Assembly (NCBI GenBank): GCA_015075635.1
Contig: JABTUA010000002.1
Location: 744,001-808,000, forward strand
DNA: 64,000 bases
Direction: 5' to 3'
From: Polyangiaceae bacterium
GTDB lineage: Bacteria; Myxococcota_A; Polyangia; Polyangiales; Polyangiaceae
Below the pieces are notes generated by a model that was not told the DNA's origin, did not search any database, and saw only the letters and a program-made list of their open reading frames with translations. The first letter of the stretch is position 1. Every line of letters begins with the position of its first letter. The translations under genes were made by a program, and so were the position numbers. This document shows positions 2,057-50,535 of the stretch, in pieces.

Positions 2057-2069
2057 CGCCGAGCGTCCG

Positions 2070-3287: not shown

Positions 3288-3443
3288 GAGGGAGGGCCCC
3301 ACCGTGGCCCACGGGCGCGGTCTTTTCAACTTCGTGGCAACGATTTTCGTGCCGGATCCCGCGTCGCGCACGAAAGCCAGCGGATCTCGCGATTTTGGCC
3401 TGGCTTGACCAAACGCTCAGGGGTTGTCGAGACTCGGCTCGTG

Positions 3444-4295: not shown

Positions 4296-4296
4296 G

Positions 4297-6561: not shown

Positions 6562-7448
6562 CACTTGCCCCGATCCAGGTAGCGCTCGAGCAACCCCGCG
6601 TAGGCGTCGATGCGGCGATCGCGCAAGAACGGCCAGCCGCGACGCTGCTCTTCGATGCGTCCGAGGTCGAGCTCGACCACCAGCGTCTCCTCGCCGGTGC
6701 CCGCCTCCGCGAGCACCACACCAGCCGGATCGCACACGAACGAGTGGCCCCAGAACTCGAGCCCGCCGTCGTTCGGCCCCTCGTGGCCGACGCGGTTCAC
6801 CGCCACCACGAACACGCCGTTGGCGATGGCGTGGCTCTTCTGCATGGTCTGCCAGGCGGCGAGCTGCGCCGCGCCGTGCGACGCTTTCTCTTGCGGGTGC
6901 CAGCCGATGGCCGTCGGGTAGAACAGGATCTGGGCCCCGGCCAGCGCGGTGAGGCGCGCGCCCTCCGGGTACCACTGGTCCCAGCACACGAGCGGGCCGA
7001 CCTTGGCGAAGGGCGTGTCCACGCTCATGAAGCCGAGATCACCCGGCGTGAAGTAGAACTTCTCGTAGAACAGCGGGTCGTCGGGGATGTGCATCTTGCG
7101 GTACACGCCCAGCTCTTCGCCCCGCGTGCCGAGCACGACGGTGGTGTTGTGGTAGAGGCCCGGCGCGCGGCGCTCGAACATGCTGGTCAGGACCACCACG
7201 CCGAGCTCCTGGGCGACCTTCGCGACGGCCGAGACGGTGGGGCCGTCTTTGGCCTCGCCCAGGTCGAACAACGCCGCGTCTTCGACCTGGCAGAAGTAGG
7301 GCGAGGCGAACAGCTCCTGCAAGCAAACGATCTGGGCGCCGCGCCCCGCCGCGACCCGGACCTGAGCCAGCGCCTTGTCGATGTTGGCGCTCTTGTCGTC
7401 CAGCGTCGACATCTGCACGAGGCCGACCTTCACGCTCTGCTTGGCCAT
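6561..7448 (-). CDS. aguB: N-carbamoylputrescine amidase
   Basis: 295 residues, a nitrilase-superfamily amidase that hydrolyses N-carbamoylputrescine to putrescine, CO2 and ammonia. The catalytic triad is readable: Glu45 in CLQELF, Lys118 in GVYRKMHIPDD and Cys155 in PLVCWDQWYPE. HIPDDPLFYEKFYF and the WDQWYPE stretch match the AguB subgroup better than general nitrilases. It is first in a minus-strand operon with aguA and a lipoprotein, all joined by overlapping start and stop codons. There is a 47 bp gap to the unrelated Cys-rich lipoprotein upstream. Confidence 0.93.
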   Translation of the reverse strand: MAKQSVKVGLVQMSTLDDKSANIDKALAQVRVAAGRGAQIVCLQELFASPYFCQVEDAALFDLGEAKDGPTVSAVAKVAQELGVVVLTSMFERRAPGLYHNTTVVLGTRGEELGVYRKMHIPDDPLFYEKFYFTPGDLGFMSVDTPFAKVGPLVCWDQWYPEGARLTALAGAQILFYPTAIGWHPQEKASHGAAQLAAWQTMQKSHAIANGVFVVAVNRVGHEGPNDGGLEFWGHSFVCDPAGVVLAEAGTGEETLVVELDLGRIEEQRRGWPFLRDRRIDAYAGLLERYLDRGK

Positions 7449-7495
7449 CTTGGCCGGAAGCTAGCCGAAGCCGTGGGCCTGGGGAACCCGGCTCG

Positions 7496-8599
7496 TCAGC
7501 TGCAGCTGCCGGACGGCGCACAGGCGCCACCCACGCAGTGTTCGCTGTAGCAGACGTCGTCCACCGTGCACTGGGCGCCGAGGTGCTGGCGCGCGCGGCA
7601 GGTGCCGTTCTCGCAGCGGGCGCCGGCGGCGCACAGATCGTCGTCGAACAGCTTCCCGCACGCCTGCCCTGCCGCCGGGCGCGGCGTACAGGTGCCGTCG
7701 AACGAGTTCTGCAGCACCTTGCAGTACTGATCCGTGGGGCAGCCGTCGGGAATCGCGATCTTGCAGGCGGCGCCCGCGGCGAAGGGCGCGCCGCACGCGG
7801 TCACGATCTTGCCGGTGGTCGTGTCCACGCTCTGCACGATGCAGCGCAGGTCGGCGGTGCACGCTGGCTTGCCGTCGAAGAAGCAGGGGTCGCCCAGCTT
7901 GCCGGAGAACCCGTCCTCGAAGGTCTTGCATGCGCCCGGCTTCTTGCCGTCATCGTCGCTGCCAAGGCAGAAGAGCCCAGGCTGACACTCCGGCGCGGTG
8001 CCGCCGCCTTCGCAGGGCTGGCCCAACGCTGCCGGCACGATGCACTTGTCCGTGGCCTCCGAGCACTTGAGCCCCGCGGCGCAGTCCGAGTCCTGGTCGC
8101 AGCTGCCTCCCGCCAACTCCTTCGACGAGCACTTGCCGGGACAAGCCGCGGCGACCTTGCAGTAGGTGTCGCCACCCTTGCACTCCATGTCCGCCTGACA
8201 GTCGCCGCCGACCTCGACGGTGCCGTCGAGGGCGGCGGTACACTCGGTGGGCTCACCCTCCAGGCTGCAGCCCCGCTTCTCGATGGCGCTCAGGCAGGCT
8301 TTGACCTTCGTGCCGTCGTAGAGGACCTTGCCGTCGTCGATGGCCTGCTTGATGCGCGGCAGCTCGTCGCCGATGGCGGTCTCGTAGTTGGTCTGGCAGC
8401 TTTCGCCGGCCAGAAACACCTCGAGCAGACCGGCGAAGCAGGCCTCGTACGCCTTGCAGACGGCGCCGGCGTAGAGCCCCGGCACGTCCTCGATGGGCAC
8501 GCTGCTCTCGCTCAGGCCGCTGTCGCTGTCGCCGCCGCAGGCGCCGACCAGCAGGGAAGCACACAGACTCGCACCGAACCAACGCATCGCCGCTCGCAT
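7496..8599 (-). CDS. Cysteine-rich lipoprotein
   Basis: 367 residues from ATG 8599. A signal peptide (MRAAMRWFG, hydrophobic core, lipobox VGAC-G) is followed by a helical segment of about 100 residues and then about eight Cys-rich repeats of the type C-x-x-D-x-D-C-x-x-G-L-x-C. These resemble the disulfide-rich Dickkopf/EGF-like repeats common in myxobacterial surface proteins. The protein is presumably outer-membrane anchored and disulfide bonded, and may act in adhesion or binding, but the ligand is unknown. The start is set by a GGAGGA site 7 bp upstream. It is divergent from the acyltransferase gene. Confidence 0.78.
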   Translation of the reverse strand: MRAAMRWFGASLCASLLVGACGGDSDSGLSESSVPIEDVPGLYAGAVCKAYEACFAGLLEVFLAGESCQTNYETAIGDELPRIKQAIDDGKVLYDGTKVKACLSAIEKRGCSLEGEPTECTAALDGTVEVGGDCQADMECKGGDTYCKVAAACPGKCSSKELAGGSCDQDSDCAAGLKCSEATDKCIVPAALGQPCEGGGTAPECQPGLFCLGSDDDGKKPGACKTFEDGFSGKLGDPCFFDGKPACTADLRCIVQSVDTTTGKIVTACGAPFAAGAACKIAIPDGCPTDQYCKVLQNSFDGTCTPRPAAGQACGKLFDDDLCAAGARCENGTCRARQHLGAQCTVDDVCYSEHCVGGACAPSGSCS

Positions 8600-8606
8600 G
8601 GGGGGG

Positions 8607-8612
8607 TCCTCC
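8607..8612 (-). promoter_or_regulatory. Ribosome binding site deciding the lipoprotein start
   Basis: The minus strand reads GGAGGA, separated by seven bases (a run of C) from the ATG at 8599. An upstream in-frame ATG at 8617 would overlap this site and lacks its own Shine-Dalgarno sequence, so 8599 is preferred. Confidence 0.6.
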
Positions 8613-8754
8613 AGCAACTCGTGTGCCAGTCAGGATCGCACGCTTTCGCGTGCCAGACGAGGGGCCCGGGACGGGGGTTCACACCCGGCTCGTGACCCGC
8701 CGGCGACGCTCCCGACTTGCGGTCTCCCGCTCGATTTCCTACCACCGGAGCGCC

Positions 8755-9570
8755 GTGCGGGTCCTCGACGCCGACCTCTCCTCGCTCACCCGCTTCGAGC
8801 GCGTGGCCTTGAGGCTGGGCGCCGCCGTCAACGAGTCGCCGCGGGTGAAGCGCGCGGCCCGCCGCTTCAACGAGGCGTTCACCGGTCGCTGGATGACGCT
8901 GGTGTCGGACCGGCGCATGACCTTGCTCGGGCTCGAGCACATGCTGGCGCTCCGGCCCGACCGCGGGGTAGTGCTGGCGGCGAACCACCGCAGCTTCTTC
9001 GACATGTACATGGTGCTCACGCACCTGCACAAACACGTGGACTGGTGCGAGCGCGCCTACTTCCCGGTGCGCGCTCAGTTCTGGTACGACCACCCGCTGG
9101 GCGTCCTGACCAACGTGGTGGCCAGCGCCATGAGCATGTACCCGCCGGTCTACCGCGAGACCGAGAAGCGCGCCGTCACGCGAGTCGGTCTCGACTTCTT
9201 GGCAGAAGAGCTGAAGAAGCCCGGTACGGTCGTCGGCATCCACCCCGAAGGCACGCGCAACAAGGGCGACGACCCCTACGCTCTCCTTCCCCCCGAGCAG
9301 GGCTTCGGCCGCGTGGTGCTCGGCTCGGCGCCCATCGTGGTGCCGGTGTTCGTCAACGGGATGACGAACGACTTCATCGCGGAGTGCCGCTCCACCCTCG
9401 ACGGCACGGGCATCCCCATCATCATCGCCTTCGGTCCGCCGGTCGAATTCGGCGAGCTGCTCGCGGCCGATCCTGCGCGACTGCGGGCGCAGATCGCGGT
9501 CGGCCGGCGCGTGCTCGACGAGATCGCGAAGCTCGCCGAGCTCGAGCGCGCGGAGCGAGCGGCACGCTGA
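8755..9570 (+). CDS. 1-acyl-sn-glycerol-3-phosphate acyltransferase-like protein
   Basis: 271 residues from the GTG at 8755. The PlsC-type acyltransferase signature NHRSFFD (H-x4-D) and the second block HPEGTRNKGDD are both present, with a further VPVFVNGMTNDF strand. Such enzymes acylate lysophosphatidic acid or related lipids at the membrane. An in-frame GTG at 8623 would give a longer protein with a basic, unconserved-looking extension. The later GTG has CCGGAG 5 bp upstream and leaves about 155 bp for divergent promoters, so it is preferred. It stands alone, and the acyl acceptor is not determinable. Confidence 0.82.
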   Translation: MRVLDADLSSLTRFERVALRLGAAVNESPRVKRAARRFNEAFTGRWMTLVSDRRMTLLGLEHMLALRPDRGVVLAANHRSFFDMYMVLTHLHKHVDWCERAYFPVRAQFWYDHPLGVLTNVVASAMSMYPPVYRETEKRAVTRVGLDFLAEELKKPGTVVGIHPEGTRNKGDDPYALLPPEQGFGRVVLGSAPIVVPVFVNGMTNDFIAECRSTLDGTGIPIIIAFGPPVEFGELLAADPARLRAQIAVGRRVLDEIAKLAELERAERAAR

Positions 9571-9604
9571 CGCGCGTGCTCGAACCGCAGCGCCGGCCCG
9601 CCAT

Positions 9605-11140
9605 TCACTCGAGCTTCGGGTAGCGCAGCGGCTCGCGGAACTCCGGCAGCATGTTGTCGTCGGTCACGATGCCGGCCCGGCCGGTGCGGCCGAGCAGCGC
9701 CTCCCGGCCCTCCAGGTCACCGTAGGCGAGCAGGCTCTCGAGCAGCTCGCGGTCGTCGTCCCGCGCGACGTCGATGACGGGCCGCCCCTCGATGCGAAGT
9801 CCTTCGAGCGAGCGCCTCCAGCGCCGGCGATCGAAGTCGATGGGAGCGTCGCTCACCGCGATGAAGTTGTTGACGCGGAGCGCGTGGGGGAACCCGCTGG
9901 CGGCCGTCCGGAGCACGTCCTCCGACCACGTCGTGTTGAAGTAGAACACCCCGCCCGGGAGCAGGTGACCGCGCACGATCTCGTGGAACTCGCGCGAGAC
10001 CAGGTTCGTGATGTGGGCGCGCCAGTGCCATGTGGTGTTCATCACGATCAGGTCGAAGCGGCGGTCGGGGTTGCGCAACAGCCATCGCCGGCCGTCGTCG
10101 AAGGCCAGCGTCACCTTCGGATTCGCCAGCAGGCCCCTCACCTCGGCGTGCTCGGCGATGAGCTCGGCGTACCCCGGGTTGATCTCGACCACGGTCAAGC
10201 GTTCGACACCGGGCAGGTGCGCCACCACCTGCGCCCAGGAGCCCGACGACAGACCGATCATCAGCACCTCGCGCGGCGCGCCGTGCAAGGCGCCGATGGC
10301 CAGAGCGCGCACGATGCCGTTGCGGTCACGGTGAATGGAGGTGCTCACGACGCCGTCGTAAGCCCCGCCTCCGTAGACCGTGCCGTCGTCCGTCACCGTG
10401 ATGACCCCGCTCTTGGTCTCGATGACGCGCGCGAAGCGCTGGTTCGTGAGCTCGTGCTTGTAGAGCAGCCGCTCGTATAGACGGTCGTAGCCCCGCGGTA
10501 GCGACCAAGCCACGAGCGCGGTCAGGAGCGACAGCGACCCGAGGGCGACTCCCAGCTGTCGGCGCGGCACGCGACTGGCGACGAAGAGCAGCGCCGAGAG
10601 CCCGAAGCCCGCGTAGGCGAGCCCGCGCGCGATCTGCAGAATGGGCCACGCGTCCAGGAGCACGAAGCCCGTGAGCACGCTACCCAGCGCCGAGCCGACG
10701 ATGTTGGCGAGGTACACGTAGGACAGTCGCGCCCCGGCCCGCTCGTCGGGGTCGATGCCGAAGTGACTGGTGAGCGGCAGCACCGCGCCGAGCAGCGCGG
10801 CCCCCAGCGCGACCATGCCGAGCCCCGCGCGAAAGTCCGTGTGCTTCGCCGACCACGCGAAGACCGGGACCACCGCCGCGCTCGCGGCATTGGCCAGGCC
10901 GACGAAGGCGCCGAGCGGGAGCAACGCTCGGAGCTCGCCGCCATGCCGCGCGTCGCGGCAGAACAGCCGGCTCCCCCACGAGCCCAGCGCCAATCCACCC
11001 AGGTACGCCGCGAGGAGCAGGCCGAAGCTCGCGGCGATGCCGCGGGTCATGAAGGCGATCACCCGATACCAGAGGATCTCGTAGGACAGCGCGAGGAACC
11101 CGCTGGCTCCCGCGATCAGGACGGCGATTCGGAGCCTCAC
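9605..11140 (-). CDS. Spermidine-synthase-like protein, membrane half plus methyltransferase-like domain
   Basis: 511 residues from GTG 11140. Residues about 1-210 contain six or more hydrophobic helices. Residues about 225-470 are a Rossmann domain of the spermidine-synthase type: MIGLSSGSWAQ nucleotide loop, TVVEINPGY acidic residue after strand 2, and FDDGRRWL. The catalytic aspartate usually found in the DSTDP loop is replaced here by MNTTWHW, so it is probably not a true aminopropyltransferase. Its GTG overlaps the TGA of the preceding gene (GTGA at 11140-11137), which encodes the matching first membrane half. Together they equal one fused membrane/spermidine-synthase protein of other bacteria. 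Confidence 0.8.
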   Translation of the reverse strand: MRLRIAVLIAGASGFLALSYEILWYRVIAFMTRGIAASFGLLLAAYLGGLALGSWGSRLFCRDARHGGELRALLPLGAFVGLANAASAAVVPVFAWSAKHTDFRAGLGMVALGAALLGAVLPLTSHFGIDPDERAGARLSYVYLANIVGSALGSVLTGFVLLDAWPILQIARGLAYAGFGLSALLFVASRVPRRQLGVALGSLSLLTALVAWSLPRGYDRLYERLLYKHELTNQRFARVIETKSGVITVTDDGTVYGGGAYDGVVSTSIHRDRNGIVRALAIGALHGAPREVLMIGLSSGSWAQVVAHLPGVERLTVVEINPGYAELIAEHAEVRGLLANPKVTLAFDDGRRWLLRNPDRRFDLIVMNTTWHWRAHITNLVSREFHEIVRGHLLPGGVFYFNTTWSEDVLRTAASGFPHALRVNNFIAVSDAPIDFDRRRWRRSLEGLRIEGRPVIDVARDDDRELLESLLAYGDLEGREALLGRTGRAGIVTDDNMLPEFREPLRYPKLE

Positions 11141-11736
11141 GAGCCGGCCTCGACGGGGCGGCGGGAGCTGCGGAACAACGCGTAGCTGCCGACCGCGACG
11201 GCCACGTTGATCGCGACCGCGATGCGCACGGTGGCGGCCTGACCCAGCGGGGCGAAGAGCGCCAGCGGCGCCGCGGCCGCCGCGGCCGCCGAGCCCAGGG
11301 TGTTGGCGAAGTACAGCCCGCCGACCGCACGGCCCACGTTGCCGGTGGCGCGCACGTGGTGGGCGACCAGGAGCGGCAGCGTGCTGCCCATGAGCAGCGT
11401 GGGCAGGAGCACGAGCAGGAACGTGACCAGCGCCGTGGTGAGCGGTGACTGGTGCAGGGTCGCCCGCCCGACCTCGCGGAACAACGCCAGCGAGAAGAAG
11501 CCGAACGCGCCGATCCCGAGCTCCACCAGCGCGAACCACAAGAGCGCGGGCCGCCGGGGATCCTTCGACACCGCGCCGCCCGCCAAGCTACCCAGCCCGA
11601 GCCCGAGCATGAACGCGGTCACCACCACGGTGACCGACTCGACGTTGATCCCGTAGATGGCGTAGAGCGAGCGCTGCCACACGACCTGGTAGAGCAGCGC
11701 AGCGAAGCCCGAGAGCACGAAGACGGCGTGCAGCAC
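11137..11736 (-). CDS. Membrane protein, first half of a split spermidine-synthase-like transporter module
   Basis: 199 residues with about six hydrophobic helices and no soluble domain. The opening SGFAALLYQVVWQR and the later MLGLGLGSLAGG are the repeat signature of the membrane domain attached to fused spermidine-synthase-like proteins. The same signature recurs as SGFLALSYEILWYR and LGGLALGS at the start of the next gene. The module therefore seems to be two homologous six-helix halves encoded in separate genes, coupled by a GTGA overlap. The transported or sensed molecule is unknown. Confidence 0.75.
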   Translation of the reverse strand: MLHAVFVLSGFAALLYQVVWQRSLYAIYGINVESVTVVVTAFMLGLGLGSLAGGAVSKDPRRPALLWFALVELGIGAFGFFSLALFREVGRATLHQSPLTTALVTFLLVLLPTLLMGSTLPLLVAHHVRATGNVGRAVGGLYFANTLGSAAAAAAAPLALFAPLGQAATVRIAVAINVAVAVGSYALFRSSRRPVEAGS

Positions 11737-11750
11737 TCGCCGAGGCTACC

Positions 11751-12527
11751 TCAGCCGCAGAGGTTGTAGCCGGGAAGGATGGTGCTGCCCTTGCAGGTCG
11801 TGCCGGAGGGGCAAACGCCGGCGTTCTTGCCGCACACGACGCGATTGGTGTTGCCGCTGCAAGACGACTTGCAGCTGAGCTCCGAGTAGAACCAGTAGCC
11901 CTGACGATTCTGCACCAGGTTCCCGCAGCAGACCTGGCCACCGTAGCAGTCCTCGGGTCCGTCGCAGCGCACGCTGGTCCCCGGGCAGCTCTGCAAGAAC
12001 AGGTTGCACGTGCCCTTCAGGCTCCCGGTCGAGTAGCTCTGACAGCAATAGGTGAGCGAGCCGTCGCAGCTGCTGGTCCCACAGGCGACGAAGCTGCTGA
12101 TCCCTCCGCCGCCACCCGTGCCGCCGCTTGCGCCGCCCGTGCCGCCGACGGCCCCGCTGCCGCCGACGCCTCCACTGCCACCGACGGCTCCGCTGCCACC
12201 GACCGCTCCGCTGCCACCGACGGCTCCGCTGCCACCGACGGCTCCGCCGCCGCCGCTGCCTCCCACGTTGCCAGCGCCACCGCTGGCGTCGCCGGCGGTT
12301 CCGCCGGAGGCGGCGGTCCCGCCGATGCCGGCCTCGTTCCCGCTGCCGCCGCTCGCGGTGCCGGCTGCGCCCCCGAGCGCGACGCCGCCGCTTCCGCTCA
12401 GATTGCCCGTGCCGCCGCCGCCCGGGCTGCCGCCCTTCCCGTAGAGGCCTTCGTCGCTCTCGCCGCCGCAGCCGACGATCAGCACGCCGCAGACGAAAAG
12501 CGATGCAAACAGCGAACGGGAGAGCAT
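11751..12527 (-). CDS. Gly-rich repeat lipoprotein with Cys-rich C-terminus
   Basis: 258 residues. The signal peptide ends in the lipobox IVGC-G. Residues about 30-145 are a Gly/Ser/Ala linker, including a tandem array of the hexapeptide AVGGSG. The C-terminal 110 residues contain about 16 cysteines (for example CCQSYS, CDGPEDCYGG, CCGNL, CKSSC), suggesting a small disulfide-bonded domain. The shape, anchor plus flexible spacer plus compact domain, is typical of myxobacterial surface lipoproteins. CDGPEDC also occurs in the lipoprotein at 50715, so the two may belong to one family. Function unknown. Confidence 0.75.
   Translation of the reverse strand: MLSRSLFASLFVCGVLIVGCGGESDEGLYGKGGSPGGGGTGNLSGSGGVALGGAAGTASGGSGNEAGIGGTAASGGTAGDASGGAGNVGGSGGGGAVGGSGAVGGSGAVGGSGAVGGSGGVGGSGAVGGTGGASGGTGGGGGISSFVACGTSSCDGSLTYCCQSYSTGSLKGTCNLFLQSCPGTSVRCDGPEDCYGGQVCCGNLVQNRQGYWFYSELSCKSSCSGNTNRVVCGKNAGVCPSGTTCKGSTILPGYNLCG
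12143..12250. repeat. 18-bp tandem repeat array (encodes AVGGSG)
   Basis: About six head-to-tail copies of an 18-bp unit read on the plus strand as GCCACCGACGGCTCCGCT with a few substitutions. On the minus strand it encodes AVGGSG hexapeptides within the linker of the lipoprotein. Copy number is likely to vary between strains by slippage, and it is a weak point for short-read assembly. Confidence 0.75.
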
Positions 12528-12655
12528 GGCACTGTCCTTCCGAGCTCCCCGTTAGGCTAGCGCCGGCTGCCGCGCCGAGCCAGGGACATCTCGTGAAGAC
12601 CCGCGCGGCAGCAACATCGAGCTCGGATCGCGGGTACAGTACCGAGCGCCCCACC

Positions 12656-13471
12656 GTGCGACGAATTGCCGTCCTCCTCTCCTTGTCGCTCACCGCCTGT
12701 CCCCGTGCGCCGGACAAACCCGAGCCCGCGTCGGTCGCGGTGCCTGGGCCCGCGAGCGCGAGTGTCGCAGCCGAGCCGCCCGGGCCCGCCGAGCGCACGC
12801 GCGACGAGGCCGTGCTGCTCGGAACGATCCATCGCCTGGGCACCAAGCTCTGCAAGAGCATCGACCAGGCGGACTGGGAGGACGTACACCTGCGCGCGGG
12901 CCTGGTGCGCCTGGAAGGGAACGTGGGCGGGCTCGAGGCGTTGCGCGGCACGCCCGTCATCCTGTTCGGCTCCGTGCTCGAGCAGGGTGAGCCCAAGCTG
13001 CCGCGAGACCCCGGAACCTGCCTGCCGATCCAAAGGCGCTCGGACTGGATCGACGGTCCGGACGGCGTGATCCTCCGACGCGACGCGGGCCCGGGCCTCG
13101 CGTCGTTCCGCGTTCGGGCCAGCCGGCGCTTCGAGCAGCTCGCGGCTCGCCTCGACGGCGACGACCTGGCCATCGACTTCACGAACCCCCTCGACGTCGG
13201 CCTGGAGCAGGTGGCGCTGCTCGTGCACTACGAGGGCTGCTACGGCAAGGCGCTCACGCACACCGAGCGCCGCGAGCTCGGTGCGCTCGCGGCGGGCGCC
13301 AGGAAGTCCGCGCGCGCGACCGGCATGGCGAACGTGACGCAAGGCTCTCGCCCGAACCTGACGCATCGTGCGGTTTCGGTCCAGGTGACGGGACGAGCGC
13401 CGAGTGTCTACTTCGATCTCGACGTGCCGCTCGGCGGGCTCGGGGTCCAGCTCTCGTGTCCCAAGCGCTGA
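12656..13471 (+). CDS. Predicted lipoprotein of unknown function
   Basis: 271 residues from GTG 12656. A short signal peptide (VRRIAVLLSLSLTAC) has its lipobox cysteine at residue 15, followed by a Pro/Ala-rich linker to about 45. The mature domain contains two cysteine pairs and beta-rich segments (GLVRLEGNVGG, GTPVILFGSVL, SVYFDLDVPLGG) but no motif I recognise. Starts further upstream in frame would read into the neighbouring divergent promoter region. A three-base GTG start with no strong Shine-Dalgarno makes the exact start only likely. It is followed 39 bp later by the zinc-ribbon protein. Confidence 0.7.
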   Translation: MRRIAVLLSLSLTACPRAPDKPEPASVAVPGPASASVAAEPPGPAERTRDEAVLLGTIHRLGTKLCKSIDQADWEDVHLRAGLVRLEGNVGGLEALRGTPVILFGSVLEQGEPKLPRDPGTCLPIQRRSDWIDGPDGVILRRDAGPGLASFRVRASRRFEQLAARLDGDDLAIDFTNPLDVGLEQVALLVHYEGCYGKALTHTERRELGALAAGARKSARATGMANVTQGSRPNLTHRAVSVQVTGRAPSVYFDLDVPLGGLGVQLSCPKR

Positions 13472-13510
13472 ATGCTCGCTGCCGCCCCGCCCCTCCGCTA
13501 ACCTGAGCGC

Positions 13511-13795
13511 GTGCTGTGTCCCAACTGCCAGTCGCCCTTGCAGGAGGGACGCATCGAGCTGCGTTCGCCCCGGCTCTGGCCTGCCAGTCGCGTCGACGAT
13601 GCATCCCTGTGCTTCACGGACGCCGCGGGAAACGCGATCTACCCAGAGGTCGGACATCGAGGCTTCCGCTGTCGGGAGTGCGACACGGTCGTGGTCTTGG
13701 GTCGTCCGGACGCCGAGCTCACCTGCTTCGAGTGCGGCACGCTCATCGTGGGTGACGCCGAGCGGTGCCCCGACTGCGGATGGAGCTGGAAGTAG
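13511..13795 (+). CDS. Small double zinc-ribbon protein
   Basis: 94 residues starting at GTG 13511. Four CxxC knuckles are visible: CPNC near the N-terminus, CREC in the middle, and CFEC plus CPDC at the C-terminus, ending in GWSWK. The arrangement suggests two zinc-binding ribbons of the kind found in small bacterial proteins with PNC/GxxEEG openings. Metal binding is a safe prediction; nucleic-acid or protein partners are not. It ends 5 bp before the convergent outer-membrane protein gene. Confidence 0.7.
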   Translation: MLCPNCQSPLQEGRIELRSPRLWPASRVDDASLCFTDAAGNAIYPEVGHRGFRCRECDTVVVLGRPDAELTCFECGTLIVGDAERCPDCGWSWK

Positions 13796-13799
13796 TCGT

Positions 13800-14465
13800 T
13801 CAGTTGAGGGTGGCGGTGAACATCAACCCGAGGGCGTTGGCAGAGTGCTTCGCGTCGAACTCGGGGCCGAGCAGCGTGACGATGTTGTCTTCCGCCTCGA
13901 CGTGCTGAAGTCGCAGGAGCACGCCCATCCCCCACTGCTTGGCGATCCACCACTCGTGCCCGACTCCCAGCGCCAGGCCGTAGCCAGTCGCGCCGCCGGG
14001 CTCGTCCATCGACCTCAGCGCCACGCCGCTCGTGGCACCAAGGCCGAAGCCCAGCTCGAAGTGCAGCCCGGATGCGGGGTCTGGGTAGTAGTCCACCATG
14101 GGGCCGAAGGTCACCACCGCGTAGCCGTCGCTCGTCTGGGTCTCGACGTCGCCGAAATCGGACTTCACTCCGTAGGCGGCGTTCAGGAAGAAGCCACCGG
14201 CGAGGATCAGCCCAGGCGCCAGCGCGCCACCCACCGCGAGCTCGTTGGCCTGGCCGAACCCGGTCACGGTTCCCTCCTGCTCGAAGCCGAAGGCGCCGCT
14301 CTGGCTCATGCTGACGTCGTCACGAACGAGGCCGACGCCGACGCCGAGCCGCACGTAGACACCGTCGTGGAAATATTCGCCGGGCTGGCGCCCAGGCTGC
14401 GCCGCGCTCGGTTGGGCCAGGAATAGCAGCGCCGCCAGGAGCCCCACGCGAGGGTTCGAGAGCAT
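13800..14465 (-). CDS. Predicted outer-membrane beta-barrel protein
   Basis: 221 residues. A Sec signal peptide (MLSNPRVGLLAALLF ending PSAAQ) precedes a domain of alternating amphipathic strands with Gly and aromatic residues (VYVRLGVGVGLVRDD, YAVVTFGPMVDYYPD, FELGFGLGATSGV). It ends in the strand LGLMFTATLN. The pattern fits an 8-12-stranded outer-membrane barrel. The last residue is Asn, not the usual Phe, so BAM recognition may differ. A second barrel of similar size and style (GPMVDYY versus GAAAFGNYYLDP) is at 19337, and the two are likely paralogues. Confidence 0.72.
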   Translation of the reverse strand: MLSNPRVGLLAALLFLAQPSAAQPGRQPGEYFHDGVYVRLGVGVGLVRDDVSMSQSGAFGFEQEGTVTGFGQANELAVGGALAPGLILAGGFFLNAAYGVKSDFGDVETQTSDGYAVVTFGPMVDYYPDPASGLHFELGFGLGATSGVALRSMDEPGGATGYGLALGVGHEWWIAKQWGMGVLLRLQHVEAEDNIVTLLGPEFDAKHSANALGLMFTATLN

Positions 14466-14549
14466 TCGCCTACCCTAGCCGGCGTCGAACCGCTCACCAA
14501 GGGTGGCCGGTGTGGTAGACGATGACGAAAGAGGGATGGCGCGGCGGAG

Positions 14550-16109
14550 ATGAAGCTGTGGAACCGCGTCCTTGGCCCGAGCGCTCCGTCGTCGGCGGAC
14601 CCGCGCGCGTTTCAGCAGGAGCGCGTCGCCCTGTACGTGAAGCTCTTGCTGATCCTGCTCGGGAGCTTCTACCTGATCGACGCGATTGGGGCCGTCGGCC
14701 GAGCGGGGGCCCGCGGCATGCTCGAGCTGGGCATGCTGTTCCACTTGGCGCTGCTCCTGGGCCTGCTCTCGGCCTGGCGGTTCGTGCGCCGGGGCGAGCG
14801 CTCGATGACTGCCCTCGGGGTGATCGACGCCGCGAGCACCTTCGGGATCTGCCTGATGGGCGCCGGGCTGCTGGCCACGATTCCTGCCCAGCTGGTCGTC
14901 CCGGGGCCTGCGTTTGCAGTGGCGTTCGCGGTCGTCGCCCGCGCGGCGATCGTGCCGAGCAGCGGACCACGGACCTTCGCAGTCGGCGTCGTGGCCAGCC
15001 TGATCGTCACCTACGGCTACTGGCACCGGGGGGCCGAGGCGCAGCCCGAGCCCGGCTTCGTGTTCGCCTGGACCATCGCCTTCGCGCTCGCGTCGGCGGC
15101 GGTGTCGCGCGTGATCTACGGTCTGCAGCGACAGGTGCAGGAGGCGCGCCAGCTCGGGCAATATGTGCTCGAGGACAAGCTCGGCGAAGGTGGGATGGGC
15201 GCCGTGTACCGAGCGCACCACGCCATGCTGCGGCGGGACACCGCGGTGAAGCTATTGCTGCCGGAGCGCGCGGGAGCCGAGAGCCTGGTGCGCTTCGAGC
15301 GAGAGGTGCGCCAGACGGCTCGGCTGAGCCACCCGAACACGGTCACCATCTTCGACTACGGTCGCACGCCCGACGGCACCTTCTACTATGCGATGGAGCT
15401 CTTGGATGGCGCTGATCTGGGCGAGATCGTGGAGGTCGGCGGGCCCATGCCGGCGGAGCGGGTGGTCAACGTGCTCTCTTGCGTCGCCGGAGCGCTCGCA
15501 GAAGCGCACGACATCGGGCTCATCCACCGGGACATCAAGCCCGCCAACATCATCTTGTGCCAGCAAGGTGGAGCGCCCGACGTGCCCAAGATCGTCGATT
15601 TCGGCCTGGTCAAGCAGATCGACGCGGGTGGCGACGTGCTCCAGACGAAGGCGGACACCCTCCTCGGAACGCCGCTCTACATGTCCCCGGAGTCCATCCG
15701 AAACCCGGAGGCGGTGGACGGTCGGAGCGACATCTACGCGCTGGGCGCGGTCGGCTACTACATGCTGACGGGCCACCACGTGTTCGAGGGCACAGCCGTG
15801 GTGGACGTGTGCCTGAAACACCTCGACGCCGTGCCGACGCCGCCGTCGGAGCGTCTGGGGCAGCCCGTGCCTGCGGCGCTCGAGCAGCTCTTGCTCCAGT
15901 GCTTGGCCAAGGACCCCGCCGAGCGCCCGCAGACCGCGCTGGAGCTGCAAGAGCGCCTGCGCGACACCGGCCTGCCGCCCTGGGACGCGAAGCGGGCCCG
16001 GGAGTGGTGGAGCACTCACGGCGCCACCCTGCGGTCGCGTCGCGCTGCTGCGGAGCCGCTGAGCGGGAGCGATCGCACACTGGCCGTGGACTACGGGCAG
16101 CGGAGCTGA
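14550..16109 (+). CDS. Membrane Ser/Thr protein kinase with N-terminal multi-helix domain
   Basis: 519 residues. Residues 25-190 form five to six hydrophobic helices. A short amphipathic linker (GLQRQVQEARQLGQY) leads into a Hanks-type kinase: P-loop LGEGGMGAVY at 211-220, Lys234 in AVKLL, catalytic HRDIKPAN at 326-333, DFG at 350-352 and GTPLYMSPE. All key residues are present, so it should be active. Thr370 and Thr374 lie in the activation segment. Most bacterial kinases of this class carry one C-terminal membrane helix and an outside sensor. Here the sensor candidate is a polytopic N-terminal domain, suggesting detection within the membrane. Confidence 0.9.
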   Translation: MKLWNRVLGPSAPSSADPRAFQQERVALYVKLLLILLGSFYLIDAIGAVGRAGARGMLELGMLFHLALLLGLLSAWRFVRRGERSMTALGVIDAASTFGICLMGAGLLATIPAQLVVPGPAFAVAFAVVARAAIVPSSGPRTFAVGVVASLIVTYGYWHRGAEAQPEPGFVFAWTIAFALASAAVSRVIYGLQRQVQEARQLGQYVLEDKLGEGGMGAVYRAHHAMLRRDTAVKLLLPERAGAESLVRFEREVRQTARLSHPNTVTIFDYGRTPDGTFYYAMELLDGADLGEIVEVGGPMPAERVVNVLSCVAGALAEAHDIGLIHRDIKPANIILCQQGGAPDVPKIVDFGLVKQIDAGGDVLQTKADTLLGTPLYMSPESIRNPEAVDGRSDIYALGAVGYYMLTGHHVFEGTAVVDVCLKHLDAVPTPPSERLGQPVPAALEQLLLQCLAKDPAERPQTALELQERLRDTGLPPWDAKRAREWWSTHGATLRSRRAAAEPLSGSDRTLAVDYGQRS

Positions 16110-43539: not shown

Positions 43540-46500
43540 TCAGCTCGCCGCGAGCTGCTTTCGCCGTGAGCCGACGTAGACCTCGCCGGTCGTGCCGTGG
43601 ATGCTCACCACGTCCCCCTTCTTGATGCGGTGGAGCACGTTGCCCTGAGCATCGCGGATCAGGGCCTCGTGCCGGTCCCCGAAGACGCTCAGGTTCTGAC
43701 CGCTGACCACGCCCGAGTAGTCACGATCGAGCCCGTTGCACGCGACGGCCGCGTGCGAGGTCGAGCCGCCGCGAGCGGTGAGCAGCCCACCCGCGGAGAT
43801 GATCAGCGGGATGTCGTCTGGCGTCGGGTTCTCGATGATCAGCAACAACCCGTCCACGTCGTCGCGCTGACTGAGATCGACCTTGGACAACTCGGCGAGA
43901 TCGGCGTCGTCGAACACCGCCAGCCCGCGGAAGCCGCCGCCGCGCACTCCGAGGCCGCGCGTGGCGGGCTCGCCGGGCTCCAGAAAGCGGTCCGTCGCCT
44001 GGTCGATGCGCGCCTCCGCACGTCGCGTCTGCAACACGCTCAGCACGCCCCGCTCCACCGTGAACTCGATCTCCTGGTCGGTGCCCATGAAGCGCCGGAT
44101 CTTCGCTACCGCGTGCTTGAGCCGCGTCTCGAGCATGGGCATCAAGGTCTCCAGCTCGCCGATCGGGCGGAACGAGTCGGCGAAGGTGACGCCGCTCACC
44201 AGATCGTCCCCGGCGGCCGAGAACTTGACCTCGCCGTCGAACGCCCGCACGCCGGCGCTCGTCGGGAACGTCCGGGTGATGACACCGGTCAGAGAGGCGC
44301 GCGTCTCGTCCATTCCCGGCTCGATGCTGTCGTTGACGCTGTTCCCGAACGCCATCTCTTGCACGATGACGGCCGTGCTCCAGCTGTGGCAAAGGCCCTT
44401 GATCTCGCGGAAGCGGCTCGCCGTGTCCGCGTCCCAGCAGGCGTAGACGGCGTTCACCGCGCAAACCAGCTGTGAGAACGGGTCGGCCAGCGCCGCGTCG
44501 AGCTCTCTGCCGTAGCCGGCTTCGCGCAGCCGGCGCTTGGACTCGTCGGCGACCTCCTTCATCGCCTCCCAGGGCAGCTCGTGCTTGTAGCGCACGCCGT
44601 GGCGCTGCTTGGCCTTCTCGACCAGATCGTGTTGCTCGAGGTCCACGCCCCAGACCGCGCCGGAATACGATGCCAGGAAGCGCCGGTACGAGTCGTAGGC
44701 TCGCCAGGGACCGTCCGCGGCGAGCTTCTCGGCGATGGCGTCGTTCATGCCGACGAACACCACGGTGGAGAGGATGCCGGGCATGCTGAAGACCGAGCCA
44801 CCGCGCACCGCGAGCACCATCGGGCTCTCTTCCACCACGCCGAAGCGCTTCTCGACGCCGTCGCGCCGACTGACGTCACGCTCGAGAATGGCCAAGTGCT
44901 CGGCGAGCTCGCGGCGCAACCGCGCCGGATCGCGCCGCTGGAGGCCTGCTCGGCCGTAGCTCGTGGGCAAGACGAAGCCGTCGCGGGTCGGGACGTTCAG
45001 GTAGCTGATGTAGCAGAGCCCGCTCCCCTTGCCGCCGTAACGCTCCCGCAGGCTGCGTGTCCCGCTCTCGTCTCGCACCCATTCGGCGATCGCTGCACGG
45101 TGCGAGATGTGGAGCACCGGGTCGGTGACTCGTGCGAGGTCCAGCTCGGGCCGCGGCTTGCGCAGCGGCTCCCCCCGGGCGAGCCGCGCGCGCACGAACG
45201 TCGCGGCGAAGTCCGAGAAGCTCACCATGCAGTTGAGGTCGTGCATGTAGCGCTGGATGTTGGCGAGGATCTGCCGCAGGTCGCCGGGCTGCAGCCCGAG
45301 GCGCTCCTGCATCTTCTCGTACGGCATGGTCACCCGCTGGCGCACCCGGTGGTAGACGCGCTCGATGTTCTCGAGCACGTTCAAGAGCTCCTCGTCGCTG
45401 CGCATCGGATCGGCGAGCATCACGCCGAAGTCGTTCAGCTCACGCGAGAACAACCCGTCGAAGCGCAGGTTCGTCGCGCACATCCGGATGATCTCGACGC
45501 ACTGAGCGAGGTCGACCCCGTGCTCGTGATAACTCGTGGCCACGTGCCGGAGCGCGAGGTAGCCCATCTCTTCGAGCAGTCCCTCGAGCTGACAGAGGTA
45601 GTAGCGCTGCTCGTCGAAGGCCGCGTCTTGAATCAGCTTCACGATCAGCGCGCGTGCCGTGCGCGTCTTGTCGAACGCCTCGAAGAAGCGCTCGGCCTCG
45701 TGCGCCTCCAGCGTCTGCGCAAGGGCGTTGAACAGCTCGTCCTGGTGGGCGGCGCGGATCTCGCGCACGAAGGCCTCCACGCCTTCGCGCAGCGCGCGCT
45801 CGGTGGACTCGCGGTCGAAGCCGGCCTCGTCGGGCTTCTGCTGCGCGGCCTCGGCGATGCGCGTTCTCAGCTCTCCGCCAAGGCCTTCGGGCCACCAGAA
45901 GCTCTGGGTCTTGCCCTCCAGAATGCGCAGGTGATGGTAGTAGACCCAGCGGTTCTTCTCGATCAGACCCTTCTCGACGATGGTCTCGAGCTCCTGTTCG
46001 ATCGAGCTCCCGAACTCGCAGCGGGTGAGCACCTCGGCATAAGATTCCTGCCACTCCTCGATCCGCTTGACGATCTGCGAGGTGCCGAGCAAGCGCTGCA
46101 GGTCGTCGACCACGCGTTCCAAGATCTCGAGCGGCTCGCCCTTGCCGCGGGCGTCGTGGTCGGCCTTGCTCGGCTCCCCGAAGCCGAGGTTCGCCAGGCC
46201 CGCGCTGTCGCCGGTCTGGAGAAACTCACGGTAGGCGAGCGCGATCTGCAGCGTGCGCTTCCCGAGCGCGTGGTGGCACGTCCGCCTGAGCTCGTTCACC
46301 ACCGCGCTACCGGGCACCCGGATCTCGGCCAGCTCGATGGTGTCGTTCCACAGCCGGTCGATCACGTTCGGCTTTCCCACCAGGCTCGACAGATTGCGCA
46401 CGACGAGGCGAGACAGGAGCAACAGCCGGCGGCGCAGGGGGCCGTTCAGGAAGCGGGTCAGCTGCGCCGTGAGGGCTCGGATCTCGGGCTGCAGGTTCTT

Positions 46501-49500
46501 GGCCCCCAGCAGGTCCTTGACGGACAGGTGGCTGAGCCGCGCCGCGAGCGCCCTGAGCCAGAACACCGCATGATTTCGGTTGGTCGTGGCGTTGACCTTC
46601 TCGAGCAGAGCCGCGACGTCCCGGATGCGGACGATGGGAAGCAGCGGTGTCTCTTCGGGGCGGACCAAGTAGAGCAGGGACTCGAGGTCGATCGGCTCGC
46701 CGCTCGCGCCGGCGACGCGCAGCACCAGGGCGTCCGTGAAGATCGTGCCGGGGGCGAAGCGCCTCTCGACGAGCACCGAGCTCTGCTCGGCCGCGGCGCG
46801 ATGCAAGCTCAGCTCGTTGTCGATCAGGTATGGGATCAGCAGCTGCTCGCCGCTCCTGAACACCCGGTTGTTCACGATGCCGAAAGGACGCTCCGGTCGG
46901 GCGAGGCGTGACTTGGCCGCGAGGTAGCCGCGGAGCGCGGCCTGAAGGTCGGGCTTTTCACCGAGCAGCGTCGAGGCCAACGCGCGGTCGAGCTCCGCCA
47001 GGACGGCGGCGTCCGGGCTCGGCGCTCCGGCGCTGGCCGGCGGCTCCGATTCTGCTGACTCCGGCTCCACCTGCTCGGTCGGCGCGAGCGCGCGCGCCGG
47101 CGAGTACGCGTCCCGCAGCGCGCGGAAGTAGTCCTTTGCGAAAGCGACGTCGGGGCCGTCGCCTTCGCCCCGCGCGAGCTCGCCGAGCGCGTGCTCTGCG
47201 AGCGCTGCCGGCGGCTCGGTCACGTGCTCGCGGATCCAGCGCACCACGCCGGCGGCTCCGACCATGCGATCACCGGCGGGTTGCTCCTTCCCGAGACGTT
47301 CGAAGAATCGACGCGTGAAGCCGAAGTCCCCCTCGGCGAGCTTGCGCGTGGCGTCGAACGCGAGCGACTCGTAGCGAGCGGTCGCGTCGCCGGGGATGCG
47401 CTCGAGTGACGCTTCCCGTCGAGCGTAGGCGGCGACGTAGCGGTAGACGCCCTTTGGCCCGAACGCCTCGAGCTGGTCGGCGTCATAGAGGAGCTGCGCC
47501 TCGAGCCCCGCCTGCTTGCGCCGCTCGACTCCCGCCGAGCTTCGATCTTCGTGCAGCACGATGGCATCGGCCACGCGCTCGACCTCTCTCTCGCCGAACC
47601 CCCGGAGCTCGGGCAGCAGCGCCCGCGCGCGCTCCGCTCCTTCGGCTCCGTGAGGGGCCTTCTCCGCGGCGACATCGTGCAGGCCAATCGCAGCCGCCAG
47701 CACGCGCCAGTCCACCTCTTGCTCCACACCGAGCGCGGCGACCAGGCGCTCTGCTCGGCCGAGGAGGTCCTTGGCGTGTACGAGGCCGTGATGAGCGTCG
47801 TTGCGGTAGCCCGCTCCGAGACGCTCGGCGATCGAGTCGAGCACCTCCGCCGCGACGGCCGGCGACGCGCTCGTCGCGGCCAGCTCCGGCGCCCGCTGGG
47901 CCGGGACCGGGAGCAGCTCCGGCACGAGCTCCGGCTCCGGCTCCGGCTTCGGTCGGGCTCTGCGCGGAGGACGTGGCGGCTGGGCGCTCGGCGCCACCAG
48001 CTGGGGCTCGGCGCCCGGCGCGAGATAGATGCCGGTGAGCTCGCGCAGCACGTCGTGCAGCGGCTTGCCTTCGCGCTCGAGCAGACCCGTCACCTCGCGC
48101 AGCGCTGCGACGTAATCTTCGAAGCGGCTGCCGGCGATCTCCACACCGTGGAGCGCGGCGAGCCGGTCCACGATGGACATCATCTCCTCCCGCAACAGCT
48201 CGTAGAGCTCCTTGCCCTGCACGCGAGCGATGGCGCGCCCCAGCGCCAGCGACACGCTCAACATGGCGTTCATGCCGATGTTCTGCTTGCGCTGCATCAC
48301 GCGAATACGGTCTACCAGCGCGGCATCTTCGGCGATTTTGCCGCGACGGGTGGCGGTTCGGAGCTCGAGGCCGAGCAGCGCGCGGTCGAGGTCGAGCAGG
48401 CCGAGCTCCGCCACGTTCTTGCCCTCGAACCACGGCGCCAAGATCCGGGTCACGTTGTCCACGGCTCCGAGACAACCCTTGCCTCCGTAGCGCTGCGCGC
48501 GAAGGTAGAGCTCGGTGAGATCGTCGTCGCCCTCGGCGCGGATGCGGGCCTCGTCCAGGCCCTTCTTGAACGCGTGGACGCCGAGCTCCACGTCCTTGAA
48601 CAGCGAGGGGAAGCGGTCGACCACCTCCTTGTGCTCGGCATACTCGACGGCGGAGTCGACCAGGTGGATGGCCTCGCCGGTCCCGGCCGACGTCCCGAGC
48701 GGCGTCGCGCCCCTGAAACGCAGCGAGACGCTGCCCGCGGGCAGCCAGATCTCTGCCGTGCTGCCCACCGTGGGAATGCCCGCGTTCGTCGGCTCCTCGT
48801 AGCCCCGGATCTTCCGCACCAGCGCCTGATCGCCCTCGGCGAGCCCCTGGCTGTCGAGCGACTCGTCGAGCTTCAGCAGCAGCTCGGACACGGCCTGGTA
48901 CTTCACCAGCCGCTCGGTGTTGGCGCCGCCGCCGGCCTTGAGCCCGAGCGAGTTGGCCGCGAGCGCGATGTGCGCCTCCATGTCGTCGTTGGGGCTCTTC
49001 GAACGGTGCGACACCACCAGCTCGAGGCCCTTGCCCAGCGCCACCAGCATCGCCAGCAAGGTCTCGTAGAGGGACCCAATCTGGTTGGCCTTGATCAGGG
49101 CGCAGTTGATCAGTCCCTGATCGGCGGCCTGCTCGATGGTCTTGTCGTTGGTGGTGACCAGGTCGTCGCCGATGATGAACACGCTCTTGCCGAGCTTCTC
49201 TTCGAGCAGGCGCCAGCCCTCGTGGTCGTTCTCGGAGAAGCCGTCTTCGATGGACAGAAGCGGGATCTCGTACTTCTCGATCGCCTGGGTGTACACCTCG
49301 AGCACGCCGTCGCGATCGAGCACCGTCTTGGCCTTGTCGCGCCAGAACAGGTACATGCCCACCGCGTCCGGGACGTTGTGCTCGTCCCGATACGCCAGCT
49401 CGAGCTCGCTCAGCGCCGGATCGAGCGCGATGGCCACGTCCACACCCGGACGGCAACCGCAGTCGGCGATGGCGCGCTTCATCATCGACCAGAGGCGCAC

Positions 49501-50535
49501 CTCGGGCAGCGGATAGTCCCCCTTCTCGATGTAGGGAGCGAGCCCGCCCTCCAGGCCGATGCCCATCACGCGGCAGCCCTCTTCCTTCTCGATGATCTCC
49601 TTGAGCCGGTTCTGCAGCCGGACCGTCAGCTCCTGCGCCTCCTGATAGCTCGTGGCCGAGAGGATCAGGAACATCGCCTCCTGCATGCTCACGTTCGACT
49701 CGGGGTACTCCTTCTCGGTGTGGCGGCCGCCCATCCCGCAGTTGCGGAACTGCCAGGGAGCGGAGACGGCGCCGAGGCGCGGGTGAGTTCCCGTCTGCAT
49801 CCGGGTCCCGAGCATGCGGCGCTTGAGCTCCGGCGCCTGCGCCAGCCAGCCCGACAGCTCACCGACGGCCCTGGCCTTCTCCTCGGCCTGCCGCTCGCGG
49901 TCACGGAATGCTTTGTACTTGCCAGGGTCGGCCAGCTTGAAGTCGAGGAACGAGACCACACCAATGCCCAGGAGCAGGCGGCCCAGGTAGATGGGCACGG
50001 TGTGATCGCCGGTCAGGCCGACCGCGAGCAGCGCGATGGCCGGCGGCAGCGTGAACAGCGCTGCATTCCGACTCGCTCGCGGACCCGCCGCAGAGACGGC
50101 CAGGTTGTAGGGAGCGTCCGGGTAGTAGTTCAGTCCCTCGCGCTTGATGCCCGGAGCCTTGCCGTAGGGAATCAGCAGCCCGAGCTTCACGTACCAGAAG
50201 AGCCGCGCGGCGAGCGGAGCTCGCAGCCGCTCCTGGACCTGCTCGAGCACGCTCTCGCTCAGCGCGTTGAGGCGCGCAGCCGTAGAGAAATGGCCGAGCT
50301 CGTGCCAGGCGATGCAGAAGTGGAACGTCACGTACGTGAACAGCGCCGAGACCAGCGTCTCTGGGCTCACGAAGATGAAGCCGAGGACCTGCCCCTTCAG
50401 GAGTGACTCGGCCGGGAGGGCCAGCACCGAAGAGATGAACGCGACGTGAAACGCCACGAGGATGTGGTTGGCGATGACCCAACCTTCCTGGAGAGCAGCG
50501 CCACCGCTCGGTCGCTGCCCGTGTGCTCGTTGCAT
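43540..50535 (-). CDS. Giant multidomain protein: M50-like membrane domain, circularly permuted enolase, HD domain and PPDK-like ATP-grasp/phosphohistidine module
   Basis: 2331 residues, start supported by GGAGG 5 bp upstream (50541-50545). Order: membrane helices with HELGH (His78, Glu79, His82; about 1-215); enolase barrel (262-556) placed BEFORE the enolase N-terminal domain (572-783); Pro/Glu-rich linker (840-890); HD domain (905-1035, HD at 953-954, His995, Asp1018); long helical part (1180-1820); and a PPDK-like ATP-grasp (1828-2180) with phosphohistidine swivel (His2261 in GGSTSH). Enolase residues are kept: H272, E286, E329, D372, E430, D457, K482, H510-R511-S512, K533; the lid PLGTSAGTGEA (612-622) resembles the canonical Ser loop. 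The PEP/pyruvate barrel of PPDK is missing. A link between enolase-made PEP and the swivel is a guess. Confidence 0.93.
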   Translation of the reverse strand: MQRAHGQRPSGGAALQEGWVIANHILVAFHVAFISSVLALPAESLLKGQVLGFIFVSPETLVSALFTYVTFHFCIAWHELGHFSTAARLNALSESVLEQVQERLRAPLAARLFWYVKLGLLIPYGKAPGIKREGLNYYPDAPYNLAVSAAGPRASRNAALFTLPPAIALLAVGLTGDHTVPIYLGRLLLGIGVVSFLDFKLADPGKYKAFRDRERQAEEKARAVGELSGWLAQAPELKRRMLGTRMQTGTHPRLGAVSAPWQFRNCGMGGRHTEKEYPESNVSMQEAMFLILSATSYQEAQELTVRLQNRLKEIIEKEEGCRVMGIGLEGGLAPYIEKGDYPLPEVRLWSMMKRAIADCGCRPGVDVAIALDPALSELELAYRDEHNVPDAVGMYLFWRDKAKTVLDRDGVLEVYTQAIEKYEIPLLSIEDGFSENDHEGWRLLEEKLGKSVFIIGDDLVTTNDKTIEQAADQGLINCALIKANQIGSLYETLLAMLVALGKGLELVVSHRSKSPNDDMEAHIALAANSLGLKAGGGANTERLVKYQAVSELLLKLDESLDSQGLAEGDQALVRKIRGYEEPTNAGIPTVGSTAEIWLPAGSVSLRFRGATPLGTSAGTGEAIHLVDSAVEYAEHKEVVDRFPSLFKDVELGVHAFKKGLDEARIRAEGDDDLTELYLRAQRYGGKGCLGAVDNVTRILAPWFEGKNVAELGLLDLDRALLGLELRTATRRGKIAEDAALVDRIRVMQRKQNIGMNAMLSVSLALGRAIARVQGKELYELLREEMMSIVDRLAALHGVEIAGSRFEDYVAALREVTGLLEREGKPLHDVLRELTGIYLAPGAEPQLVAPSAQPPRPPRRARPKPEPEPELVPELLPVPAQRAPELAATSASPAVAAEVLDSIAERLGAGYRNDAHHGLVHAKDLLGRAERLVAALGVEQEVDWRVLAAAIGLHDVAAEKAPHGAEGAERARALLPELRGFGEREVERVADAIVLHEDRSSAGVERRKQAGLEAQLLYDADQLEAFGPKGVYRYVAAYARREASLERIPGDATARYESLAFDATRKLAEGDFGFTRRFFERLGKEQPAGDRMVGAAGVVRWIREHVTEPPAALAEHALGELARGEGDGPDVAFAKDYFRALRDAYSPARALAPTEQVEPESAESEPPASAGAPSPDAAVLAELDRALASTLLGEKPDLQAALRGYLAAKSRLARPERPFGIVNNRVFRSGEQLLIPYLIDNELSLHRAAAEQSSVLVERRFAPGTIFTDALVLRVAGASGEPIDLESLLYLVRPEETPLLPIVRIRDVAALLEKVNATTNRNHAVFWLRALAARLSHLSVKDLLGAKNLQPEIRALTAQLTRFLNGPLRRRLLLLSRLVVRNLSSLVGKPNVIDRLWNDTIELAEIRVPGSAVVNELRRTCHHALGKRTLQIALAYREFLQTGDSAGLANLGFGEPSKADHDARGKGEPLEILERVVDDLQRLLGTSQIVKRIEEWQESYAEVLTRCEFGSSIEQELETIVEKGLIEKNRWVYYHHLRILEGKTQSFWWPEGLGGELRTRIAEAAQQKPDEAGFDRESTERALREGVEAFVREIRAAHQDELFNALAQTLEAHEAERFFEAFDKTRTARALIVKLIQDAAFDEQRYYLCQLEGLLEEMGYLALRHVATSYHEHGVDLAQCVEIIRMCATNLRFDGLFSRELNDFGVMLADPMRSDEELLNVLENIERVYHRVRQRVTMPYEKMQERLGLQPGDLRQILANIQRYMHDLNCMVSFSDFAATFVRARLARGEPLRKPRPELDLARVTDPVLHISHRAAIAEWVRDESGTRSLRERYGGKGSGLCYISYLNVPTRDGFVLPTSYGRAGLQRRDPARLRRELAEHLAILERDVSRRDGVEKRFGVVEESPMVLAVRGGSVFSMPGILSTVVFVGMNDAIAEKLAADGPWRAYDSYRRFLASYSGAVWGVDLEQHDLVEKAKQRHGVRYKHELPWEAMKEVADESKRRLREAGYGRELDAALADPFSQLVCAVNAVYACWDADTASRFREIKGLCHSWSTAVIVQEMAFGNSVNDSIEPGMDETRASLTGVITRTFPTSAGVRAFDGEVKFSAAGDDLVSGVTFADSFRPIGELETLMPMLETRLKHAVAKIRRFMGTDQEIEFTVERGVLSVLQTRRAEARIDQATDRFLEPGEPATRGLGVRGGGFRGLAVFDDADLAELSKVDLSQRDDVDGLLLIIENPTPDDIPLIISAGGLLTARGGSTSHAAVACNGLDRDYSGVVSGQNLSVFGDRHEALIRDAQGNVLHRIKKGDVVSIHGTTGEVYVGSRRKQLAAS

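Follow-up and report, generated by a model that had tools for sequence, protein, structure and literature searches.

The window analyzed here, a 64,000-nucleotide stretch of a Polyangiaceae contig, carries on its minus strand one uninterrupted open reading frame (43540–50535) encoding a 2331-residue protein, the features of which are collected in Table 1. Along this protein, Pfam finds Enolase_C, Enolase_N, a weak HD match, PPDK_N, and, at the C terminus, PEP-utilizers, and the domain assignment by NCBIfam agrees with this order. A sequence-only reading of the window had singled out positions 48187–49752 as an enolase in which the two domains have traded places; these positions correctly correspond to residues 262–783 of the frame, and the conserved unit extends beyond them, as it also includes an M50-like membrane segment and a pyruvate, phosphate dikinase (PPDK)-type dikinase that lacks the usual C-terminal barrel. 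The neighbors of the fusion gene in the window encode a Na/H exchanger, a sigma-54 regulator, an AMP-binding enzyme, and a hydrolase. Operon context was considered as a guide to function and set aside, as these neighbors are uninformative and no neighbor gene at all is conserved across the family.

Table 1. Features of the fusion gene and its 2331-residue product (window positions; aa, residues of the protein)
Feature	Position	Strand	Evidence or content
Whole gene, 2331 aa	43540..50535	(-)	M50-like segment / permuted enolase / HD insertion / helical domain / ATP-grasp / phosphohistidine domain
Membrane segment, M50-peptidase-like, aa 15-250	49786..50493	(-)	Predicted mostly helical; weak PF02163 matches in 25/39 relatives
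HELGH metal motif, aa 78-82	50290..50304	(-)	H78, E79, H82 in 36/36 relatives covering the region
D198 of LDF, candidate third metal ligand	49942..49944	(-)	Invariant in 39/39
Enolase catalytic TIM barrel, aa 262-570, ahead of the N-domain	48826..49752	(-)	PF00113 1e-47; PDB enolases down to 4.8e-43; Foldseek enolases
E329 = E209 of E. coli	49549..49551	(-)	Alignment with E. coli enolase
K482 = catalytic base K342 of E. coli	49090..49092	(-)	Alignment with E. coli enolase
H510-R511-S512, active-site His and phosphate-binding Arg/Ser	49000..49008	(-)	Identical in all 33 permuted and all 58 ordinary enolases
Enolase N-terminal domain, aa 572-783, following the barrel	48187..48822	(-)	PF03952 1e-10
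S616 of lid loop PLGTSAG = Mg-binding S42 of E. coli	48688..48690	(-)	100% conserved
Helical C-terminal extension of permuted enolase, family-specific, aa 784-845	48001..48186	(-)	Alignment conservation; predicted helical
HD-type domain insertion, about aa 905-1130	47146..47823	(-)	NF007515 1.6e-5
Helical domain, mostly helical, conserved, aa 1195-1800	45136..46953	(-)	Conserved in alignment; without Pfam or PDB match
PPDK-type ATP-grasp domain, aa 1812-2180	43996..45102	(-)	TIGR01828 3.2e-68; PDB PPDK; nucleotide-site residues invariant
Phosphohistidine swivel domain, aa 2195-2331, GGSTSHAA	43543..43953	(-)	PF00391 8e-8; Foldseek PPDK
H2261 = phospho-His H455 of PPDK	43753..43755	(-)	Invariant in 30/30

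The order of the two enolase domains follows directly from the Pfam coordinates, with Enolase_C at residues 265–570 (E = 1e-47) and Enolase_N behind it at 586–781 (E = 1e-10), as the sequence-only reading would have it, and it recurs in the relatives. Both domains are matched in all 39 relatives scanned, in which the PF03952 match reaches 1e-17. The new termini lie in the interdomain linker, near E. coli residues 138–146, and a short linker joins the old ones; the relocated N-domain also carries a family-specific insertion of ∼50 residues (632–680). For a comparison of active sites, the permuted proteins were re-ordered and set against 57 ordinary enolases from the same genomes and the E. coli enolase (NC_000913). 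This alignment pairs H272 with H159 of the E. coli enzyme, Q285/E286 with Q167/E168, E329 with E209, D372 with D246, E430 with E290, D457 with D317, K482 with K342, H510-R511-S512 with H370-R371-S372, K533 with K393, and, in the lid of the relocated N-domain, S616 with S42. At each of these 13 positions, which we take to serve catalysis, metal binding, or phosphate binding as in enolases generally, the residue is identical in all 33 permuted proteins. The catalytic residues picked out by the sequence-only reading thus map onto E. coli enolase as it had claimed, and its placement of the lid in the relocated domain holds as well; the agreement goes far beyond chance.

Elsewhere, residues that all ordinary enolases have in common are replaced without exception in the permuted proteins: D14-S15-R16 becomes TNA, S39 becomes Leu, A41 becomes Thr, D208 becomes Leu, G373-E374-T375 (immediately after the HRS motif) becomes KSP, and R399 becomes Asn. 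The position of E. coli E188 is occupied by Arg in 85% of the permuted proteins; a literature search on loss of the ordinary dimer interface (E188 to Arg) returned nothing usable. This pattern of substitutions suggests that the reaction has been preserved while second-shell contacts have changed, and perhaps the subunit interface with them. Because several universal residues are changed in all permuted proteins, the substrate or the assembly may differ from those of ordinary enolase. The permuted proteins score 209–216 bits against the enolase model TIGR01060, the cut-off of which is 300, although permutation by itself depresses this score.

An AlphaFold2 model of residues 1–845, computed from 39 sequences, has a mean pLDDT of 81.7 and a pTM of 0.79. 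The pLDDT is mostly above 80 in the barrel and the N-domain and low at the end of the barrel and in the linker (roughly residues 510–570), falling below 50 at residues 536–547 and 559–561. In a Foldseek search, the best PDB matches of this model are enolases; the matching follows sequence order and hence covers the barrel, not the permuted whole. We infer that a single enolase-like subunit is formed by the barrel together with the relocated N-domain. A model of the second half of the protein (residues 1190–2331) has a pLDDT of 82.4, and its best Foldseek match is PPDK.

The membrane segment in front of the barrel contains, besides the HELGH motif, an AGP..N motif upstream of D198. Weak PF02163 (peptidase M50) matches were obtained for 25 of 39 relatives in one scan and for 13 of 15 in another; the window protein itself gave no PF02163 match, an hhalign comparison with M50 aligned only 14 columns, around HEXXH, and no PDB match was found for the segment.

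At the other end of the protein, the equivalents of PPDK residues K22, R92, R135, E323, Q335, R337, and H455 are found in all 30 proteins compared, and that of D321 is Glu; we take the PPDK numbering and the roles of these residues to be established. The C-terminal PEP/pyruvate-binding barrel of PPDK is absent by Pfam, NCBIfam, and the profiles of the relatives, the protein ending after the His domain. The helical domain in front of the ATP-grasp domain found no match in Pfam, in the PDB, or by Foldseek. In two cases, both from related loci, the next gene downstream of the fusion codes for polyphosphate kinase 2 (L059:9019–10623, identified by Pfam, and L071:6881–8428, identified by homology); recycling of AMP after a dikinase reaction would fit such a neighbor, although the observation comes from these two loci. 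Dikinases that have a different acceptor domain in place of the pyruvate barrel phosphorylate a hydroxyl group of another molecule, e.g., rifampin phosphotransferase (PMC4844700) and HpeHI, a dikinase of the phenylphosphate-synthase type (PMC12167813).

One scan of a genome collection retrieved 44 loci in other genomes that encode the same permuted enolase. Most are 64–83% identical to the window protein over 522 residues, and the copies from Margulisiibacteriota, Saganbacteria, and Omnitrophota are 55–58% identical. Their hosts, some forty additional bacterial genomes representing nine or more phyla, are metagenome-assembled members of the Myxococcota, Acidobacteriota, Planctomycetota, Krumholzibacteriota, Gemmatimonadota, Thermodesulfobacteriota, Pseudomonadota (mostly Lysobacterales/Xanthomonadales), and Aminicenantes, in addition to the three groups just named; one locus (L049) lies on a metagenome-assembled record labeled as a chromosome (CP070750). 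Within the phylum of the window the protein is rare, its helical domain being present in 8 of 379 genomes. In a tree made with a quick method from bacterial sequences only, 33 permuted enolases group together in a single, fully supported clade, separated by a long branch from 58 ordinary enolases, a topology that would fit a single permutation event. Between closely related pairs, dN/dS is about 0.03–0.25 in every module and lowest in the barrel (the value of 0.245 is based on a dS of 0.03); purifying selection acts on all of them.

The genome of the window also holds a separate ordinary enolase and a separate PPDK-like gene. An ordinary enolase, or at least a fragment of one, is present in 39 of 41 relatives; none was found in the genomes G147 and G154, both of which are unfinished metagenome bins. 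Because nearly every host also carries the ordinary enzyme, the permuted enolase is an extra one, and the idea that it replaces ordinary enolase was rejected.

By profiles built from the alignment, nearly all complete members of the family share the same series of modules (i.e., M50-like segment, barrel, N-domain, helical region of ∼600 residues, ATP-grasp domain, and phosphohistidine domain), usually within 2,030–2,220 residues. The HD insertion of the window protein, the metal-site motifs of which look intact, separates the enolase from the helical domain; among the relatives examined it was found by sequence in L035 and L039 only and is missing in most, which rules it out as a core part. 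At L037:9041–15471, the protein is split after the N-domain into two adjacent genes on the same strand, a natural pair that should be useful for expression work. At L072 and L073, the first half is encoded by a gene of its own, beside a diverged, divergently oriented PPDK-like gene, and in both of these dikinases, read by eye, a His occurs at matching spacing before a conserved Gly-Ile-Pro, at the phospho-His position. The Omnitrophota copy (L074) has the first half embedded in a 3214-residue protein with other metabolic domains, in which no dikinase could be recognized; conversely, the second half is found at L122 and L123 without an enolase half nearby. Three different gene arrangements thus preserve the association of the permuted enolase with a dikinase, though with exceptions.

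Two of these loci have further peculiarities. The giant L074 protein (751–10392, plus strand) includes a Glu/Leu dehydrogenase that likewise has its domains reversed (ELFV_dehydrog at 618–774 before ELFV_dehydrog_N at 909–1008) as well as a UDPGP domain, and the motif SLASN(A/E)GL repeats between its modules in a linker-like fashion; the next gene (10370–15106, plus strand) is also giant and encodes 1579 residues with phosphoglucomutase domains. At L123, a pyruvate dehydrogenase E1 gene lies two open reading frames beyond the gene for the helical-domain/dikinase protein (3785–7390, minus strand), on the same strand, and the same genome holds a full fusion too.

On balance, this naturally occurring, circularly permuted enolase with a complete active site is probably the catalytic center of a membrane-tethered enolase-dikinase, i.e., a true 2-phosphoglycerate (2-PG)/phosphoenolpyruvate (PEP) enolase coupled to ATP-to-histidine phosphotransfer. 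Judging by its residues, the permuted enolase would interconvert 2-PG and PEP. The C-terminal half would load phosphate from ATP onto His2261 and pass it on to an acceptor, presumably not pyruvate, given the absence of the PEP/pyruvate barrel, and the two halves would most likely be coupled by sharing or channeling a substrate at the membrane. As an example, glycerate or another small hydroxy acid might be phosphorylated to 2-PG and then dehydrated to PEP by the enolase, although this is a guess that we would expect to be wrong. Similarly speculative, and rather unlikely, is the more general scheme in which a phosphohistidine kinase and a permuted enolase on one polypeptide at the membrane convert ATP, Pi, and a hydroxy acid (e.g., glycerate) to PEP, or use PEP, and possibly also control an intramembrane protease; if true, it would connect lower glycolysis with membrane signaling in a new way, with a patchy distribution over bacterial phyla.

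Several other readings have to be weighed against a true enolase coupled to a dikinase. The replacement, throughout the family, of residues that enolases otherwise share without exception, the TIGR01060 scores below the cut-off, the separate ordinary enolase of nearly all hosts, and the long branch between permuted and ordinary enolases would all agree with an enolase-fold enzyme that acts on a related phosphorylated hydroxy acid instead of 2-PG; with all residues known to bind the carboxylate of 2-PG, the metals, the phosphate, and the leaving group kept in 33 of 33 proteins, we regard such a new substrate as unlikely, though not implausible. The membrane segment could also be the business end of the protein: some M50 proteases are gated by CBS domains, and by analogy the M50-like segment might cut a regulator while the enolase and dikinase halves sense 2-PG/PEP and ATP/AMP/Pi. 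In favor of this view, selection on the segment is purifying, every relative with sequence in this region has it fused to the permuted enolase, its HExGH motif and D198 are retained in all relatives covering them, and the hosts already have an ordinary enolase. The M50 assignment is nevertheless weak, as seen above from the missing PF02163 match, the short hhalign alignment, and the lack of a PDB match, and the invariance of every catalytic enolase residue favors a protein that turns over its substrate over one that only senses it, so that we consider a metabolite-gated protease unlikely.

Domain order alone does not tell on which barrel the N-domain packs, and the confidence of the model is low in the linker (residues 536–547 and 559–561); a swap in which each N-domain closes over the barrel of a neighboring chain would accommodate both points. 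The single-chain pTM suggests a defined arrangement within one chain, and we regard such a swap as quite improbable. As to an assembly artifact, the domain order is real because it is conserved in relatives from at least nine phyla; the 44 loci with the same order, the intact frame, and the purifying selection between close relatives refute both an artifact and a decaying pseudogene, the probability of which is now negligible.

Enolase is among the most conserved of enzymes, and we know of no natural enolase permutant. Full-text literature searches, the scope of which left out most subscription journals, turned up no natural permuted enolase, enolase domain fusion, or enolase-PPDK fusion, and the enzyme family is real and apparently undescribed. 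That a permutant is conserved in at least nine phyla suggests that the enolase fold tolerates termini re-routed through the interdomain linker, and the family offers a natural series for studying the origin of permuted proteins. That the permuted enolase is repeatedly found together with a barrel-less dikinase and a protease-like membrane segment points to a reaction or sensor around PEP that has so far gone unrecognized.

Each part of the fusion has known counterparts from which it also departs. With the site-2 type M50 metallopeptidases, the membrane segment shares HExGH, AGP..N, and a later LD motif, whereas its profile similarity to them is marginal. The dikinase half resembles PPDK (TIGR01828) in its PPDK-ordered ATP-grasp and phosphohistidine domains, its nucleotide-site residues, and its phospho-His, but lacks the PEP/pyruvate barrel, has Glu in place of D321, and is preceded by a 600-residue helical domain and an enolase. 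An ATP-grasp domain and a swiveling phospho-His module that serve an acceptor other than pyruvate are also found in rifampin phosphotransferase (PMC4844700) and HpeHI (PMC12167813); unlike these, the fusion is much closer in sequence to PPDK and has an enolase as its partner. That partner has both domains of enolase (PF03952 and PF00113, TIGR01060), all tested active-site residues, and a matching barrel fold; it differs from enolase in that DSR, D208, the GET after HRS, and R399 are replaced in every member, in its 50-residue N-domain insertion, helical C-terminal extension, and fused modules, and in having the barrel before the N-domain, which comes first in all 58 ordinary enolases collected.
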